From NCBI RefSeq assembly GCF_018437505.1, contig NZ_CP072467.1, forward strand, positions 4,240,010-4,304,009: DNA of 64,000 nt. The letters run 5' to 3'. A model generated the notes under the pieces. That model was not told where the DNA came from. It saw nothing but the letters and a program-made list of their open reading frames with translations, and ran no database searches. Shown in pieces: positions 6,504-57,924 of this stretch. Every line of letters starts with the position of its first letter. The first letter of the stretch is position 1. The translations under genes and the position numbers were made by a program. The stretch comes from Spiractinospora alimapuensis (GTDB taxonomy: Bacteria; Actinomycetota; Actinomycetes; Streptosporangiales; Streptosporangiaceae).

Positions 6504-6580
6504 CGCCACGCCCCGCGTGACCTTCTCCCTCGGTGGCAACTCCGGTTCGCTCCGCACCCTCTCGACGGCCTGGTGCCGGG
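6504..6580 (+). repeat. Intergenic repeat, copy B
   Basis: Second copy of the dispersed repeat, somewhat diverged at its 5' end (CCACGCCCCGCGTG), then GGTGGCAACTCCGGTTCGCTC and CGGCCTGGTGCCGGG. It is nearly identical to copy E in its centre. It lies between the divergent flavoprotein and zinc-ribbon genes. Confidence 0.6.
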
Positions 6581-47140: not shown

Positions 47141-47194
47141 CCCCGTCGGGGCGATGGCTGGTGACGGGCTTCGACGTAGCAGCCAGTGGGCCAC

Positions 47195-47285: not shown

Positions 47286-47360
47286 GGTCGCGCTCCGCGC
47301 GGCTCACCCCTGTGGCAACTTCGGCCGATCACTGTGCCCCCTTCCCGGCCTGGTGCGGGG
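47286..47360 (+). repeat. Intergenic repeat, copy D
   Basis: GGTCGCGCTCCGCGCGGC, TGTGGCAACTTCGGCC and GGCCTGGTGCGGGG. The first 22 bases are identical to copy E at 52301, and the end is too. Copies D and E lie in direct orientation about 5.0 kb apart around the regulator/kinase/MetRS block. Confidence 0.65.
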
Positions 47361-47522
47361 GAGCCTCGAACTCCTGGAAAAGGCTTCCTTCAGGGGCAAT
47401 ACTCGGTATGGTCTGGCCTTGCGGTTCTGTGTTGTCATGGAACCGAACCGCTGTCTGGATGCCTCATGCGTGGTGGGGGTGTCGGACGTGAATCGATGCG
47501 AATTCTGACTTGGGTCGTGGTC

Positions 47523-48830
47523 ATGAAACCCAACAGCCGGCTCCGTCTGGCGCGGGAAGCGTGTCCTTCGCCGGCTGATCCCAGTGAGCCCATGAGCCGA
47601 GCTGAGTTGGCCGAAGCCGTTAGCGAGTATCTGTGGCGCACCACGGGGACGCACTCCGCGTTGGACGCCCACGCCATCGCTCGCTACGAACGTGGCAGAG
47701 TGACCTGGCCCAGTGCCCGGTATCGGGCCGGTCTGCGCGCCGTGCTCGGAGTCCCCACAGATGCTGGTCTGGGCTTTCACGCGGTGCGGCGCCGGCGCGG
47801 CCCGACATCGAAGGCCGAGACCTTCTCCCCGAACGGTGCTGTCCGAGCCGAGGGCTCCGGAATGGACTCGGAAGACCTCCTGGTCCTCGACGCGGTTGAG
47901 ACCTCTGTTCCACGGTGGGTGGGAGCGGTCGAAGTGGAGTACGTGCGGGCAACTACCCGCGCAGTCGCGATGTCGGAGAACGCATTCGGCGGTGGGCTTT
48001 CCTACGGGGCGGGGCTCTCGCAGCTTCGTTGGTCAAAACAGCTGCTGGGTGCGAGGGCCAGCGACACCGTTCGTCGGGAGTTGTTTGAGTCCGTGGGCAA
48101 CCTCGGTGGGGTCGTGGCGTACTCCGCCTTCGACGCCGGGATGTTCGAAGTGGCCGACCGAAGCTTCCGGTTCGCTCTTAGGTGCGCTGAGCGTGCCGAC
48201 TCCTGGGAGCTACGGGCGAACATCCTTGCCGAGATGTCCCGCAAGGCGACCTACCTGAACGACCTGGACGGGGCTCTCACCCTGGTTGAGCACGCCCAGG
48301 TGCGGGAGGATCGGCTGTCGCGATCAACGCGGGCGATGCTGTGGACGTTGCGTGCCCGCACGCTCGCGTTGCGAGGGACCTTCCACGCGGTTGAGGACAA
48401 TATCGTGCGCGCGGACGAGTGCTTCGCCCTGCGCGACCCGAAGTACGCTCCACCGTGGCTCTGCTACTACGACGAAGCCGAGCACTATGGAAGCACCGGT
48501 AAAGCCCTGATTCCCCTGGCAGTGGACTCTCGTCGACCTGAAGTCGCCGCTTCTCGACTACGTCGTGCTGTCACTATGCACGACTCGCGCTACCGCCGTT
48601 CCCGTGTCTTCTCCAGCATTCGTCTCGCGTCGCTCCTGTTGGCTGTCGGAGATCCAGCGGAGGCGGTGAGTGTTGGGCACCAGGCTCTCCCTGACGCCAA
48701 GAGGCTGCGCTCCGCCAGGATCGCGACTGAACTGGCCGGACTGGCACGCGTCGCCGGAACACATGACCAGCGCGAGGACATCGCCGAGCTCCGTCACGAG
48801 GCGTCGGCGGCGGCTTCAGCGGCGACCTGA
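47523..48830 (+). CDS. HTH/TPR transcriptional regulator
   Basis: A 435-aa regulator. Residues ~1-85 look like a divergent XRE helix-turn-helix (NSRLRLAREA, SRAELAEAVSEYLW, AIARYERGRVTWPS). The rest is helical and TPR-like (ERADSWELRANILAEMS, LLLAVGDPAEAVSVG). It has the same plan as the regulator at 4640-5845. ATG 47523 is preferred; ATG 47496 is in frame upstream. The kinase gene starts 12 bp after its stop, so it is the first gene of an operon and may control it. Confidence 0.8.
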   Translation: MKPNSRLRLAREACPSPADPSEPMSRAELAEAVSEYLWRTTGTHSALDAHAIARYERGRVTWPSARYRAGLRAVLGVPTDAGLGFHAVRRRRGPTSKAETFSPNGAVRAEGSGMDSEDLLVLDAVETSVPRWVGAVEVEYVRATTRAVAMSENAFGGGLSYGAGLSQLRWSKQLLGARASDTVRRELFESVGNLGGVVAYSAFDAGMFEVADRSFRFALRCAERADSWELRANILAEMSRKATYLNDLDGALTLVEHAQVREDRLSRSTRAMLWTLRARTLALRGTFHAVEDNIVRADECFALRDPKYAPPWLCYYDEAEHYGSTGKALIPLAVDSRRPEVAASRLRRAVTMHDSRYRRSRVFSSIRLASLLLAVGDPAEAVSVGHQALPDAKRLRSARIATELAGLARVAGTHDQREDIAELRHEASAAASAAT

Positions 48831-48842
48831 GAGTATCGCCGT

Positions 48843-49724
48843 GTGGCCTCTTCTGTGAACGACGCGCGCAGGATTCTCGACCGCGCCGCGCAGGCGGTCG
48901 GGATTGACCCAACTGGTGCGAAGGTGATCCGCGACGGCGCCAACGTCCTCTACGAGTTGCCGGGCCGGATCGTCGCCCGTGTCGGGCGCCCCGGGGAAGG
49001 TGATGTGGCGGAGCGGGAGGTGTCTGTCTCTCGATGGTTGGAGGACCGAGGGATTTCCGTGGTCCACGCCCTCCACGGGGTGGATCAAGCCGTCGTCGTC
49101 GACCGGCGGCCGGTCACCTGGTGGCGACTGCTGCCACGCCACCGTGCGGCTAGCCCAGCCGAGCTCGGTTCTGTCCTGCGAAAGCTCCATGACCTCGCAG
49201 TTCCAGACATCGGGCTCACGAGGTTCGACCCATTTCACGGGATCGACGCAGCGGAGCTTGAGTCCATGATTCTCGCCCCCGGGGACCACGCCTGGTTGGT
49301 GCGGCGCGTCGACGAACTTCGCCAGGGTTATCAGGCGGTGGTGGAGACGCAATCGCGGGTGATCCACGGAGACGCGTGGCAGGGCAACGTCGCGGTCGCC
49401 GACGACGGGGAGATGTTCATCCTGGACCTGGAGAGTGTCGCTCTGGGGCCGCCAGACATCGACCTCGTCCCCCTCGCGGTGGACTACACCGACTTCGCCC
49501 GCCTTGCCCGGGATGACTACGCCTCGTTCGTCGCCGCGTATGGCGGGTACGACGTCACGGAGTCACCCGGATATCGCGTTCTGGCTGACATCCAGGAACT
49601 GCGATGGCTGTGGTTCCTCCTCGGCAAGAGCGGCACCAGTCCCGGCGCCCACGCTGAGGCCCAGTATCGCCTCCGGTGCTTGCGCGGCGAGGTACCGCGT
49701 CCATGGACTTGGAGCGCGTTCTAG
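48843..49724 (+). CDS. APH-like phosphotransferase
   Basis: A 293-aa protein of the aminoglycoside phosphotransferase/choline-kinase superfamily. The catalytic loop is VIHGDAWQGNV (Brenner motif) and the metal-binding aspartate is in FILDLESVALG. The N-terminal nucleotide lobe has VARVGRPGEGDVAEREV. It phosphorylates a small hydroxylated molecule or drug; the substrate cannot be told. GTG 48843 lies 12 bp after the regulator, indicating co-transcription. Confidence 0.85.
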   Translation: MASSVNDARRILDRAAQAVGIDPTGAKVIRDGANVLYELPGRIVARVGRPGEGDVAEREVSVSRWLEDRGISVVHALHGVDQAVVVDRRPVTWWRLLPRHRAASPAELGSVLRKLHDLAVPDIGLTRFDPFHGIDAAELESMILAPGDHAWLVRRVDELRQGYQAVVETQSRVIHGDAWQGNVAVADDGEMFILDLESVALGPPDIDLVPLAVDYTDFARLARDDYASFVAAYGGYDVTESPGYRVLADIQELRWLWFLLGKSGTSPGAHAEAQYRLRCLRGEVPRPWTWSAF

Positions 49725-49904
49725 TCCACAGGGCACGTTCACACCCTGCCTTTCGATGCCCCAAAGTATGCCCTCCCCGTCATGCCGACAGCGTGGAATC
49801 GTGATGGCCGAAGGTCACCGGAGGCCGAGCGTCCCACGGGTGTGATCGTGCGCAGCCTCCGTTGACCCCTCTGTCGGCAGGACAGGTCGGGAGGAATCCA
49901 CCCC

Positions 49905-50624
49905 ATGAAACACGACTACAGCATCACCGGGCACGTCAACGGCCGTCACATCCAGGGGCGCGGTACCGGAGCGATCGACCCATCGACGGGCGTGAGTGAA
50001 ATGGACGTGACATTTGAGCGCATCGCCGATGGGTGGGATCCCCGTTCAATAGTGCTGATGTGCTGTGACCGTGCGTTGATCATGGCCGCGCGGGAAGAGT
50101 TGGGTGCAGTCGGCATGTTCCGAGCCTCCGGAGGCGAGCTCACGATCGGTGGGCACCTGCCCGGTAACGGTCGCGAAGGAGTGATGCGCACAGGTCGCGG
50201 TGAACTTATGGCACATGTCAATGCCACGTCGCGAACCGATCTACGCGGTGACGCTCCCTTTGACCACTCTCGAGTCGAAGGCGGATTCTCGCATCTGAAG
50301 CAAGGCCTCAATGGCATAAAACGAATCCCGCCCTTTGACGGTGTGATGTTCCAGGCCGGTCCGAACCTCGTCGTTGTCACCACGCGCTTCGTAGCCGAGC
50401 TGGAAGACGGCTCCACCATCTTCGGTTCCACCAACTACCCGCACTATCTCCCAGATCAGGTGATCGAGATCCCCGGCCACCAGCAGTTGCGGGTCGAGTC
50501 CGTCGAGCAGCGACTCGACGGTTCACACCTGTACTCCAAGGTGACCACGTCCGTTATGCCCCTCATCGCCCAGCCGCAGGAGCCGGTCTCCCAGCTGACT
50601 GAACCACTGATGGCGAGGGCCTGA
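49905..50624 (+). CDS. Uncharacterised protein of accessory block
   Basis: A 239-aa soluble protein that I do not recognise. It is rich in beta-strand patterns with alternating hydrophobic residues (YSITGHVNGRHIQGRG, NLVVVTTRFVAEL, LYSKVTTSVMPLI). The shape suggests a beta-barrel or lipocalin-like fold, which is inference only. There is no signal peptide or membrane helix. ATG 49905 has GGGAGGA about 9 nt upstream. Third-position G+C is lower than in core genes. It sits between the kinase and the MetRS-like gene. Confidence 0.7.
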   Translation: MKHDYSITGHVNGRHIQGRGTGAIDPSTGVSEMDVTFERIADGWDPRSIVLMCCDRALIMAAREELGAVGMFRASGGELTIGGHLPGNGREGVMRTGRGELMAHVNATSRTDLRGDAPFDHSRVEGGFSHLKQGLNGIKRIPPFDGVMFQAGPNLVVVTTRFVAELEDGSTIFGSTNYPHYLPDQVIEIPGHQQLRVESVEQRLDGSHLYSKVTTSVMPLIAQPQEPVSQLTEPLMARA

Positions 50625-50736
50625 AGGCCGCCTGTGCTGAGCGTCGAAAACCAGGCACTACCTTGGCCGCTGGTCGGTAGGATCCCCGCACTATCCGCCG
50701 TCATTTCGAAGACGTTCTCTGAGTCGGTGAGGCACG

Positions 50737-52254
50737 ATGACACGCCGCTACATCACGACCGCCATTCCCTACGTCAACTCCACGCCGCACCTGGGGTTCG
50801 CGATGGAGATGGTGCAGACGGACGTGATGGCGAGGCACTGGCGGCACCGGGGGCACGAGGTTCGGTTCCTGAGCGGCACGGATGACAACTCGTTGAAGAA
50901 CGCGATCGCTGCCGAGGCCGAGGGCGTACCCACAGCGCAGCTGGTGGAGCGCAACGCCGCTGCCTTCTACGGCCTGCGGGAACCGCTCCAGCTCAGCTTC
51001 GACGACTTCATTCGTACGAGCTCCGACCCCCGCCACGCACGCGGCGTCGACCGGCTGTGGCGGGCCACGGAGAGCGCGGGAGACCTTTACCGCAAGCATT
51101 ACGAGGGGTTGTACTGCGTCGGCTGCGAGCAGTTCTACACCGAGGCAGAACTCCTCGACGGACTGTGCCCCGAGCACCTCACCGCTCCACAGGAGGTGAG
51201 CGAGGAGAACTGGTTCTTCAAGCTGTCGCGGTACGAGCGGCAGCTCCTTGACGTCATCGAGACCGGGCGACTGCGCATCGAACCCGAGAGTCGCCGCAAC
51301 GAGGTCCTCAGCTTCATCAGAAGCGGACTTCAGGACTTCTCGATCTCGCGGTCCATCGAACGGGCGCGGGGCTGGGGGATCACTGTTCCTGATGACCCCA
51401 AGCAGGTCATCTACGTATGGTGGGACGCTCTGGGCAACTACATCACGTCCCTGGACTACGGCACCGACGGTGAGACGTACCACCGTTGGTGGACCGACTC
51501 CGACGAACGGACGCACGTCATCGGCAAGGGCATCCTGCGCTTCCACGCGGTCTACTGGCCGGCGATGCTGCTCAGCGCCGGCCAACCCCTTCCCACGACC
51601 ATCTTCGTCCACGACTACCTGACAGTTGATGGCCGCAAGCTCGGCAAGAGCCTCGGCAACGCCATCGATCCGGTCAAGATCGTGGACGCATACGGCCCCG
51701 ACGCGCTGCGCTGGTGGCTCGTCCGTGACGTCGCGCGGGTCGGCGACGCCGACTTCACCCTCGAACGCCTCCTGGCCCGCTATCACGAGGACCTCGCCAA
51801 CGGGCTCGGCAATCTCGTCAACCGCACCGTGAGCATGATCCATAGGTACCGCGACGGCCACGTTCCCCCACTGCCCGACGAACCACCGGTCCTGCCTCTG
51901 ACACAGGCCATCGACACCGCGCCCGAAGCGGTTGACGCGGCCATGGAACGGTTCGACTTCCGCACCGCCACGGCAGCCGTCTGGAAAATCGTGGAAGAGG
52001 CGAACCGCTACGTGGTCGAGGTCTCGCCCTGGAACCTCGCCAAGGCCGAGAAGGAGGGCGACGCCGAGGCCGGCGCGGCCCTCAACGACACACTGGCGCT
52101 GCTCACCCATGCCGTCCGTGTCGTCGCTGACGAGCTGAGCCCCTTCCTGCCGTCCGCTTCTGAGCGAGTCTCCGCCCAGCTCCTGCCGACGGAGGGCCGA
52201 CTCCCCACGCCGCAGCCGCTCTTCCCCCGCATGGAGCCCGTCTCTCCTGAGTAG
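50737..52254 (+). CDS. metG: Methionyl-tRNA synthetase-like protein
   Basis: A 505-aa class I aminoacyl-tRNA synthetase most like MetRS. The N-terminal ITTAIPYVNSTPHLGF, the single zinc knuckle YCVGCEQFY...LCPEH, SWLVWWDAL-like region (VWWDALGNYI), and GKGILRFHAVYWPAM match MetRS. The signature motifs deviate: HIGH reads HLGF and KMSKS reads KLGKS (near residue 300). The anticodon-binding domain is present but there is no C-terminal tRNA-binding domain. It is probably a second MetRS (drug-resistant form or specialised role) and not the housekeeping copy; that is inference. ATG 50737 follows GAGGCACG. Confidence 0.85.
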   Translation: MTRRYITTAIPYVNSTPHLGFAMEMVQTDVMARHWRHRGHEVRFLSGTDDNSLKNAIAAEAEGVPTAQLVERNAAAFYGLREPLQLSFDDFIRTSSDPRHARGVDRLWRATESAGDLYRKHYEGLYCVGCEQFYTEAELLDGLCPEHLTAPQEVSEENWFFKLSRYERQLLDVIETGRLRIEPESRRNEVLSFIRSGLQDFSISRSIERARGWGITVPDDPKQVIYVWWDALGNYITSLDYGTDGETYHRWWTDSDERTHVIGKGILRFHAVYWPAMLLSAGQPLPTTIFVHDYLTVDGRKLGKSLGNAIDPVKIVDAYGPDALRWWLVRDVARVGDADFTLERLLARYHEDLANGLGNLVNRTVSMIHRYRDGHVPPLPDEPPVLPLTQAIDTAPEAVDAAMERFDFRTATAAVWKIVEEANRYVVEVSPWNLAKAEKEGDAEAGAALNDTLALLTHAVRVVADELSPFLPSASERVSAQLLPTEGRLPTPQPLFPRMEPVSPE

Positions 52255-52300
52255 GAGGTCGTCCCGAGCCACCTGCGCCGCCGGCACCGAGAACGATCGC

Positions 52301-52377
52301 GGTCGCGCTCCGCGCGGCTCACTGCCTTGTGGCAACTCCGGTTGCTCGCCGTGCCCCCTTCGCGGCCTGGTGCGGGG
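52301..52377 (+). repeat. Intergenic repeat, copy E
   Basis: The most complete copy: GGTCGCGCTCCGCGCGGC, GTGGCAACTCCGGTTGC, GTGCCCCCTTCGCGGCC and TGGTGCGGGG. GCGC-TCC-GCGC and GCAAC-TCCG-GTTGC can form two small hairpins. It lies between the MetRS-like gene and the convergent PLP enzyme. Confidence 0.65.
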
Positions 52378-54166: not shown

Positions 54167-55021
54167 TCAGAGTCCCGCCGCCCGCGCCAGAGCCCGTCCG
54201 GTCAGGACACGGGACAGGTGCCGGCGGTAGTCCTCCTTGCCGTGGAGATCACTGGGCGGGTTGGTGCCCTCGTCGGCGGTCCGTGCCGCCTCCGCCAGTG
54301 CCTCCTCCTGCGCGGGGACGCCGCGAACGGCCGACTCCACCGACGCGGCGCGAACGGGCACGGAGTCCATGTTCGTGAGCCCGATCCGCGCCTCGGCGAC
54401 GGAACCGTTGCTGCGCCGCACCGCCGCCGCGACCCCGACGATGGCCCACGCCTGCGCCGTCCGGGTGAACTTCTCGTAGTGGAAGTTCCACCCGCCCCAC
54501 TTCTTGGGGATACGGATGCCCGTCAGCACCTCGTCCTGTTCCAGAGTGGTCTCCAGATAGTCGACGAAGAACTCCGAGGCGGGGATGACCCGTTCGCCGC
54601 CCGCCCCCTGGACCACCATCTCGGCCTCGAGCGCCAACGCGACGGCGGGCAGGTCGCTGGCCGGGTCGGCGTGCGCGAAGGCGCCGCCGAGTGTCCCCCG
54701 GTGGCGTACCGCCGGGTCGGCGACGGTCTGGGTGGCCGTGGCCAACAGGGAACAGTGCTCCGCGATCAGCGGGTCCCGGACCACGTCGTAGTGCGTGGTC
54801 ATGGCGCCGATCCACAGGTGGTCGCCCTCGTCGCGCACCCCACGCACGTCCTGGATCCCGCCGAGGTCGATCACGACGTCGGGCTCGGCGAACCGGAGCC
54901 GCAGGAGCGGCATCAGGCTCTGGCCGCCCGCGATGACCTTGGGGTCCTCGCTCTCGCCCATGGCCTCGACCGCGGAGGCGATGTCGTTCGGTTTGAGGTA
55001 CTCGAAACGCGGTGGGATCAC
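54167..55021 (-). CDS. coxM: CODH-type medium subunit (FAD)
   Basis: The 284-aa flavin subunit of a molybdenum hydroxylase. FAD-binding motifs AGGQSLMPLL and TLGGAFAHADPASD are the CoxM signatures. It passes electrons between the FeS subunit and the acceptor. It starts with GTG 55021, overlapping the coxL stop in GTGA, so translation is coupled to coxL. The frameshift in coxL would disturb this coupling unless bypassed. Confidence 0.92.
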   Translation of the reverse strand: MIPPRFEYLKPNDIASAVEAMGESEDPKVIAGGQSLMPLLRLRFAEPDVVIDLGGIQDVRGVRDEGDHLWIGAMTTHYDVVRDPLIAEHCSLLATATQTVADPAVRHRGTLGGAFAHADPASDLPAVALALEAEMVVQGAGGERVIPASEFFVDYLETTLEQDEVLTGIRIPKKWGGWNFHYEKFTRTAQAWAIVGVAAAVRRSNGSVAEARIGLTNMDSVPVRAASVESAVRGVPAQEEALAEAARTADEGTNPPSDLHGKEDYRRHLSRVLTGRALARAAGL

Positions 55022-57373
55022 TGTGCGCCTCCTTGGCCACGGGCGGCGACCACGGCGCGCCAGACCCGCTCAGGTGTGCAGGGCATTTCGATGTTGGTGA
55101 CGCCCATCGGGGCGAGGGCGTCCACGATCGCGTTGACGACGGCCGGTGTGGAGGCGATGGTGCCCGCCTCCCCGACGCCCTTGACCCCCAGCGGGTTGGA
55201 CGTGGCCGGGGTCTCCGTCCGGTCGGTGACGAACTCCGGCAGGTCCGCCGCGGTCGGCAGCAGGTAGTCGGCCATGGTCGCGGTCACGAGGTTGCCGCTG
55301 TCGTCGTAGACGGCCTCCTCGAACAGGGCCTGGGCGATGCCCTGCGCGAGTCCGCCGTGCACCTGCCCTTCCACGATCAACGGGTTGACGGTCTTCCCCA
55401 CGTCGTCCACCGCGACATAGGAGCGCAACCGGACCTGCCCGGTCTCGGTGTCGACCTCCGCGGCGCACAGGTGGGTCCCGTGCGGGAAGGAGAAGTTCTC
55501 CGGGTCGAAGGTGAACTCCGCGTCGATGGTGGGCTCCATGCCGTCCGGCAGGTCGTGCGCGGCGAACGTCGTGAGCGCGACGTCCTGGATGGAGGCCTTC
55601 GGCTCGGTGGTGCCCCGCACCCGGAACGCGCCGTCGCGGAACTCCAGATCCGACTCGGCGGCCTCGAGCATGTGCGCGGCGAGCGGACGCGCCTTCTCGA
55701 TCACCCGGTCGCAGGCCCCCACCACGGCGACGCCCCCGACGGTCAGCGAACGCGACCCGTAGGTGTCCATGCCGCGGGGACACCCGGGTGTCACCGTGCA
55801 GCACCTGGACGTCGGAGAACGGAACGCCCAGCCGGTCGGCGACGATCTGGCTCCACGCGGTGTCGTGACCCTGCCCGTGCGGGGTCGCCCCGCTCACCAC
55901 CTCGACCTTCCCGGTGGGCAGCATCCGTACGGACGCCTGCTCCCACCCGCCGGCGGAATAGTTGAGCTGGCCGAGGACGCGGGAGGGAGCCAGACCACAC
56001 ATCTCCGTGTAGGTGGAGATGCCCAGTCCGAGTTGCACCCGGTCGCCCCGTTCGCGGCGCTCCCGCTGCTCACGCCGCAGCCCCTCGTAGTTGAAGAGCT
56101 GCTCGGCCCGCTCTGTAGCGGCCTCGTAGTTGCCCGAGTCGTAGGTCAGCCCCGCGACCGAGTCGTAGGGAAACTCCTCGTGCTTGATCCAGTTGCGCCG
56201 CCGGAGTTCCAGCGGATCCATCCCCAGTTCCGCGGCGAGTTCGTCCATGATGCGTTCGATGGCGAAGGTCGCCTCCGGGCGACCCGCGCCGCGGTAGGCG
56301 TCCGTGGGCATCTTCGTGGTGAAGACGCCGGTCGCCGTGAAGTGGTAGGCGTCCATCTTGTAGATGCCCGGGAACATGAACGCGCCGAGCACCGGGATGC
56401 CGGGCGTCACCAGCATCAGATAGGCGCCCATGTCGGCGAGCAGGTCCACCTTGAGGCCACGGAGCCGGCCGTCGGCGTCCGCGGCGATGGAGACGTCCTG
56501 GATCTGGTCCCGCCCGTGGTGCGTGGTCTGGAACCCCTCACTGCGGGTCTCGGTCCACTTGACCGGGGTGCCCAGGCGCTTGGCCAACAGCAGCGCCAGC
56601 ACTTCCTCCCCGGTCACCTGCAGCTTGGATCCGAAGCCGCCGCCCACGTCCGGCGCCACGACCCGGATCTCGTGCTCCGGGATCCCCGTCACCAGCGCGA
56701 GCTGGATCTTCAGGATGTGCGGGATCTGGGTGGCCGACCACAGCGTGAAGCCGTCGCTGTCGGGCGCGCACACCACGGCCCGTGGTTCCATCGCGGCGGG
56801 GATCAGCCGTTGCTGCCGATAGCGCCGCGTCACCGTGACCGCGGCGTCGCTGAAGGCCTCGTCGACGTCCCCGGTGTCCAACGGCCACACGAAGGACTTG
56901 TTGGTCCCCACGTCCGCGTGCACCAGGTCGGCGCCGTCGGCGAGCGCGGCCTCCATGTCCATGACCGGGGGCAGTGGTTCGTAGTCGACGTCGATGGACT
57001 CCAGCGCGTCGGCCGCCGCGTAGGCGTCCCGCGCCACGACGCAGGCCACGATCTCGCCGGCGTAGCGGACTTCCTCCACCGCCATCGGCGGGTGGTTGGG
57101 GATCACCGTGTCCTCGGTCACCGGCCAGGCGCAGGGCAGGCTTCCCTGCTCGCCGGCGAGGTCCGCACCGGTCAGGACCGTGACCACGCCGGGCTGTCGG
57201 CGCGCCTCGGAGGTGTCGATGCGGGTGATGCGGGCGTGCGCCTCCGGGCTCCGCAGGAACGCCACGAACTGCGTTCCGGGGAGTTGGATGCTGCTCGTCC
57301 ACTGTGTGCGCCCCGTGATGAGTCGGGCATCCTCCTTGCGGGGAAGTGCCTGGCCGAGCGGGGTAGTGGTCAT
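55018..57373 (-). pseudogene. coxL: CODH-type large subunit CoxL, frameshifted
   Basis: Molybdenum-cofactor large subunit of the CO-dehydrogenase/xanthine-oxidase family. The first frame runs from ATG 57373 ([15 protein letters not shown]) to about 55774; the rest (GMDTYGSRSLTVGGVAV to the end) continues in another frame to 55018. The junction is in gccgcgggg at 55771-55779, and one missing base there would restore the usual SPRGMDTYGSRS. The active-site motif is AYRGAGR, which marks form II (CODH-like, substrate uncertain) and not form I (AYxCSFR). The two halves are otherwise intact, so a recent mutation or a sequence error are both possible. Confidence 0.8.
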
Positions 57374-57924
57374 GACGCACCCCCCGACGTCGGCGCGGGT
57401 GCGTCCGCCCCCGCCGTCGACGTGGCCTGCTGGGGAACGCTGCCGGGCTCGGCCGCGCTGGCACGCATGACCTCCGCCGCGGAGCGGACGGCGCGCACGA
57501 TGTTGGCGTAGCCCGTACAGCGACAGAGGTTGCCCTCCAGCCCCTCGCGGATCTCGTCGTCCGTGGGGTCGGGGTTCTCCCGGAGCAGGTCCACGGCCGC
57601 GATGATCATCCCGGGCGTGCAGTAGCCGCACTGCAGGGCGTGGGCCTCGTGGAAGGCCTTCTGGACCGGGTGCAGCACCCCGTCCTCGGCGAGCCCCTCG
57701 ATCGTGGTGATGTCGTGCCCGTCGGCCTGAGCGGCGAGCACCGAGCAGCTCTTTGTGGACAGGCCATCCATGAGTACCGTGCAGGAGCCGCAGTTCGTCG
57801 TGTCACACCCCACGGGTGTGCCGACCTTGCCGAGGCGTTCGCGGAGATAATGGATGAGCAGCAGGCGTGCTTCGACCTGATCGTCGTAGCGGACACCGTC
57901 AACGGTCGCGCGGATCTGTGGCAT
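57370..57924 (-). CDS. coxS: CODH-type small [2Fe-2S] subunit
   Basis: A 184-aa two-cluster iron-sulfur subunit. The plant-type cluster is bound by [10 protein letters not shown] and a later Cys; the second cluster by CGYCTPGM and CRCTGY. The last ~35 residues are a variable Ala/Pro-rich tail. It is first in the operon, and its TGA overlaps the coxL ATG (ATGA). Confidence 0.95.

Follow-up and report, generated by a model that had tools for sequence, protein, structure and literature searches.

What is a second methionyl-tRNA synthetase (MetRS) doing downstream of guaA, beside a protein of no recognised family and behind a regulator and a kinase? The window analysed here, a stretch of 64,000 nucleotides from Spiractinospora alimapuensis in whose coordinates positions are given below, carries these four genes in a block at 47286-52377. 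All four point rightward and lie 3' of guaA, whose stop codon is at about 47083. The first, on the plus strand like the others, encodes an NsdA-family regulator of HTH/TPR-like type (47475-48830; its start codon is uncertain and the open reading frame begins at 47154). It is followed after 12 bp by the gene for an APH-like small-molecule kinase of 293 residues (48843-49724), then after 180 bp by that for a protein of 239 residues, which we call U239 (49905-50624), and finally by that for a MetRS of 505 residues (50737-52254). Gene order, strands, coordinates and the 12-bp gap, all recomputed from the window, agree with the first-pass annotation, which had described the block as an insertion bounded by repeats and had suspected a single system of drug resistance or tRNA-linked metabolism.

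The suspicion of acquired DNA is borne out by composition and by the site itself. The GC content is 62-66% across the block and 70-71% on both flanks. In two relatives (G008 and G007), which lack the block, guaA and the molybdenum-hydroxylase-like genes seen in the window stand in the same order, separated by other genes. A clean empty junction downstream of guaA was not found among the genomes compared, because the nearest of them belong to other genera; hence the presence/absence comparison proposed earlier holds for the missing block and not for the junction. The GC dip and the absence of the block at the matching site together support the view that it was acquired horizontally, at a variable site 3' of guaA. 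Further along the window, the large-subunit-like gene of the molybdenum hydroxylase (55018-57631, minus strand) is split over two overlapping frames near 55790, which points to either a frameshift or an error in sequencing.

The repeats at the edges of the block are real, and say less about it than they seemed to. The left copy (47289-47360) and the right copy (52306-52377), both on the plus strand, are direct copies with 76% identity ungapped and 87% gapped; their first 16 bases, CGCTCCGCGCGGCTCA, are identical and their ends nearly so, as first noted. Yet the repeat does not delimit the block: it belongs to a dispersed family. BLAST with the right copy as query found 18 matches (E<=0.01), spread over both strands, in the organism's own genome (5.86 Mb in one contig), and a strict pattern of the repeat matched exactly seven times genome-wide, against none for the reversed control. 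The element is about 80 bp long, and its copies number at least 18. They lie in both orientations in intergenic positions far from the block, several of them near genes for XRE-type regulators. The repeat is also found in the window at 6534-6576. Since the family is dispersed, the flanking copies alone are no proof of a mobile unit or of a joint transfer of the four genes, and given their occurrence in both orientations we rejected the repeat as evidence for the border of such a unit. No transposase was found among the genes of the block. As for the nature of the repeat, a search of Rfam gave no match, and a structured RNA was set aside as an explanation, the folding z-scores being only -1.5 and 0.3.

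Do the four genes form one system? One might think of a single operon directed against an aminoglycoside-like or MetRS-inhibiting compound and placed under the NsdA-type regulator, and the shared strand, the flanking repeats and the common GC dip would fit such an operon. The families first proposed for the regulator and the kinase do stand. The regulator scores 224 bits against NCBIfam NF053720 (NsdA family; cutoff 75) and has a weak TPR_12 match; the kinase matches the broad Pfam APH family (3.2e-15) and no other. But the kinase lies far under the cutoff of the named resistance enzymes, none of which it matches above threshold (for APH(9)-Ia, 15 bits against a cutoff of 680), and 180 bp part it from U239. 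Above all, each pair of genes recurs without the other. Of 29 loci from the same bacterial family that hold a kinase homologue, 12 also have a regulator relative at a distance of 1.5 kb or less, among them six of the seven closest; this pair recurs without U239 or the MetRS. U239 and the MetRS recur in turn without the regulator and kinase, the nearest approach being a single locus (L028) where an NsdA-like regulator (36% identity) stands about 4 kb away and no kinase accompanies it. Judged by these gene neighbourhoods, the block is composed of two independent modules, regulator with kinase and U239 with MetRS, and we consider a common operon very improbable. The earlier idea of one four-gene system is not supported.

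The MetRS matches tRNA-synt_1g (6.5e-96), Anticodon_3 and, above cutoff, metG (TIGR00398, 423 bits), and it belongs to PRK12267/metG. That it is a second and divergent copy, as had been supposed, is clear from the main MetRS of the genome, which lies elsewhere, at 3.13 Mb (G000 3132720-3134432), and shares 32% identity with it. The two enzymes differ in structural type. The block MetRS has one CxxC...CxxH knuckle in its CP domain and the main enzyme has an extra knuckle insertion; types of MetRS are defined by knuckle number (PMC9071491). The single zinc-type knuckle therefore makes the accessory enzyme type 1, and the two knuckles of the main one make it type 2. In the accessory enzyme the HIGH and KMSKS positions read HLGF and KLGKS, variants that may weaken catalysis; HLGF is common in its clade. 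Members of this clade occur in about 27 of 120 genomes of the family. In four genomes (G430, G207, G442 and G002) a clade member is present and a MetRS of the second type was not found, so a clade member as the sole MetRS found suggests a working enzyme, one that can probably serve a cell alone. Relatives of the block MetRS are also carried by plasmids of Streptomyces and Rhizobium, outside obvious biosynthesis clusters. The accessory MetRS genes on three Rhizobiaceae plasmids (L173, L174 and L176) are 45-50% identical to that of the window, and two Rhizobium plasmids share a setting of hydrolase, ethanolamine-utilisation-like protein, MetRS and enoyl-CoA hydratase.

U239 is far rarer than the synthetase. 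We found it in two of 250 genomes of the window's family and in one of 395 of the class, with whole copies in three of 390 genomes of the family of Amycolatopsis palatopharyngis. Rare as it is, it keeps constant company: all five intact actinobacterial U239 genes that we found adjoin a MetRS of the same clade, four in the same direction and one divergently, so the co-occurrence that the first-pass annotation had proposed to search for is there. The carriers are the window, A. palatopharyngis (L029), Saccharomonospora iraqiensis (L028), a Pseudonocardiaceae metagenome-assembled genome (MAG; L027) and genome G023. The copies in L029, L028 and L027 have the gene order of the window and 70-74% identity to its U239; that of G023 is the divergent one, at about 52% identity. 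The region between U239 and the MetRS is not conserved and holds no conserved leader. The dN/dS ratios of U239 (0.10-0.21) and of the MetRS (0.15-0.25) are low and show, from these sequence comparisons, that both genes are kept by purifying selection. The MetRS tree unites the enzyme of the window with those of the three Pseudonocardiaceae carriers (100/100), and that of G023 nests in a different sublineage, among clade members without U239; hence the pairing arose more than once or was lost repeatedly. A second copy of U239, of the G023 subtype and broken at its 5' end, lies near a serA-like gene and a contig end (L092:5967-6668, G610 C6) in the Pseudonocardiaceae MAG. Near the Amycolatopsis pair are genes for a restriction-modification system of XhoI-like type and for a TraD/TraG-like ATPase (L029, 380-2763 and 10460-12055). 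A more distant relative, with 26% identity, sits on a Hymenobacter plasmid (NZ_CP110137.1; L031:9983-10672), annotated as a hypothetical protein among transposases and uncharacterised genes.

One might argue that U239, even as a GFP-like barrel (see below), is linked to an ordinary spare MetRS only by the mobile DNA that they share, the barrel serving some unrelated function. The restriction system and ATPase beside the Amycolatopsis pair would fit such an accident, as would the clade itself, most of whose MetRS genes (members in about 27 of 120 genomes, as against U239 in two of 250) have no U239. So would the Hymenobacter relative, within 10 kb of which no MetRS is annotated; the function of the barrel need therefore not involve a MetRS, and its role may be more general than this link. 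Mere shared transport is at odds with the adjacency in five of five intact actinobacterial copies, in two orientations and with two MetRS sublineages. We thus regard it as unlikely, if a serious contender, and the pairing of U239 with the MetRS as fairly supported by the genomes compared.

What is U239? Searches of Pfam (up to E 10), NCBIfam and PHROGs gave no family match, in keeping with the earlier view of a beta-rich protein of no known family. A phage origin was considered and dropped, as phages, viral contigs and PHROGs held no match, and so was a defence system, PADLOC giving no match for any protein of the block. Tests of sequence-family membership do not place U239 with the green fluorescent protein (GFP): besides the lack of a Pfam match, the best PDB sequence reached only E 0.13. 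Other signals point towards GFP. With a profile of five U239 relatives, the PDB sequences gave six matches, and all six were GFP-like, a weak signal when taken by itself. Four fluorescent proteins were combined into an HMM, which with filters off put exactly the six U239 relatives in its top ranks (E 0.006 to 1.1) among 5,385 ORFs from all six frames of 984 kb, the Hymenobacter protein among them. The fourth of these proteins, EosFP, whose sequence is presumably correct, also entered the mixed alignment. Single fluorescent proteins did less well as phmmer queries against the same ORFs: EosFP gave weak matches to U239 (E 0.009), avGFP gave none, and those of DsRed and mNeonGreen were at chance level. 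Aligned by hhalign with three fluorescent proteins, whose sequences were confirmed against PDB entries, U239 scored 28.75, against a maximum of 21.3 for 60 column shuffles and 15.4 for the reversed profile.

Structure prediction leads to the same family. Two template-free AlphaFold2 models, built from different query sequences and an alignment without the G023 and Hymenobacter sequences, have the same topology, b1-b2-b3-helix and then later strands. In Foldseek searches of the PDB they matched 1,050 and 1,158 chains, respectively, at E<=0.001; the matches listed were all fluorescent proteins or chains bearing one, with best E-values of 6.5e-7 and 6.8e-8. Superposition on fluorescent proteins by VIA-align gave Z 10.7 (3.5 Å, 169 residues) and Z 11.9 (3.4 Å, 190 residues). 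A can of 11 strands around a central helix is thus predicted and matched, by models of pLDDT 40-52. Their mean pLDDT is 39.7 for the first and 52.1 for the second (pTM 0.57), residues 66-135 being poorly modelled, and this low confidence, above all in that segment, is the main weakness of the fold assignment. It leaves some room for another beta-barrel, lipocalin- or nitrobindin-like for example, whose likeness to GFP would be a bias of AlphaFold2 runs on few sequences and of a PDB rich in fluorescent proteins; the pLDDT, the modest sequence E-value and the abundance of these proteins in the PDB would all be as expected. Such a bias accounts poorly for the first ranks of the six relatives among 5,385 ORFs, for an hhalign score above its column-shuffle control, for the agreement of both models and of all Foldseek matches listed on fluorescent proteins, and for a helix that follows b3 as in GFP. 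We judge a different barrel improbable, and a GFP-like can fairly supported by the models.

If U239 is a GFP-like can, it is probably a dark one. Three MAFFT modes agree in aligning Met52-Cys53-Cys54 (codons at 50058-50066, plus strand) with the chromophore tripeptides SYG, QYG, GYG and HYG of fluorescent proteins, in an alignment that is unreliable around the maturation residues Arg96 and Glu222, and the hhalign register, which sets Trp44 of U239 on Trp57 of avGFP, implies the same placement. The cysteine pair at this predicted chromophore position is invariant in all six relatives, none of which has the XYG tripeptide: they read M-C-C or, in Hymenobacter, I-C-C. The cyclisation chemistry of GFP needs the glycine of the tripeptide. 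A tripeptide without it is therefore not expected to cyclise, and a canonical chromophore is not expected in U239.

Accessory synthetases are known as spares that serve under conditions stopping the housekeeping enzyme. We propose that the patch was acquired, that it unites two modules, and that the second of them joins a spare type 1 MetRS to a non-chromogenic GFP-like U239 as its dedicated partner, a scenario to which we give a little less than an even chance. The extra MetRS would charge tRNA(Met) when the type 2 housekeeping enzyme is inhibited or damaged, for instance by a natural MetRS inhibitor or by oxidative stress; a role in drug tolerance is plausible. U239 would control or protect the synthetase, and might do so by binding a ligand or by sensing the redox state through its buried cysteine pair.

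How does this compare with known systems? In Gram-positive bacteria, accessory MetRS enzymes of the other structural type form type 1/type 2 pairs tied to inhibitor tolerance. The block resembles them in its horizontally spread second MetRS of the other type, and differs in that here the type 1 enzyme is the spare and the type 2 enzyme the main one, and in that the spare travels with U239. A link of this kind with U239 would be a new kind of tRNA synthetase partner. With the fluorescent proteins and chromoproteins of lancelets, copepods and anthozoans, U239 shares over nearly its full length the predicted b1-b3, the central helix and the later strands, together with an N-terminal GxVNGxxxxGxGxxxxxxG pattern and a W-D before the helix; unlike them, it has M-C-C (I-C-C in Hymenobacter) for XYG, has no Pfam match, is bacterial and is paired with a MetRS. 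Relatives of GFP without chromophore residues are known from ctenophores, that of Mnemiopsis having QTN at the tripeptide (PMC4997694); these resemble U239 in this respect and differ in being animal proteins with no reported link to a synthetase. The G2 domain of nidogen is likewise a GFP-like can without chromophore whose sequence link to GFP appears at the profile level only (HHpred P 0.0017 and worse; PMC2467403), but it is an extracellular domain of an animal matrix protein, whereas U239 is a stand-alone bacterial protein.

Where the GFP fold came from is not settled; GFP and nidogen G2 are both known from animals. In the part of the literature covered we found no report of bacterial GFP-like proteins, and the GFP-type barrels that we found described came only from animals. 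A reviewer quoted in one study suggested undetected barrels as possible precursors of both GFP and G2, and a metagenome search by its authors yielded only ordinary animal-type GFPs (PMC2467403). A bacterial GFP-like barrel that accompanies an enzyme of translation would be surprising if true. Tentatively, and with confidence just under the halfway mark, we see in U239 and its relatives non-chromogenic bacterial GFP-type cans with a buried cysteine pair, of which one actinobacterial lineage works with a dedicated MetRS, and candidates for the non-animal relatives that GFP and nidogen G2 have so far lacked. Such a relative would provide a can that naturally has no chromophore and carries a cysteine pair at its centre, and would make the origin of the fold testable; should the fold be confirmed, the U239 family would bear directly on the question of a precursor of GFP and nidogen G2.
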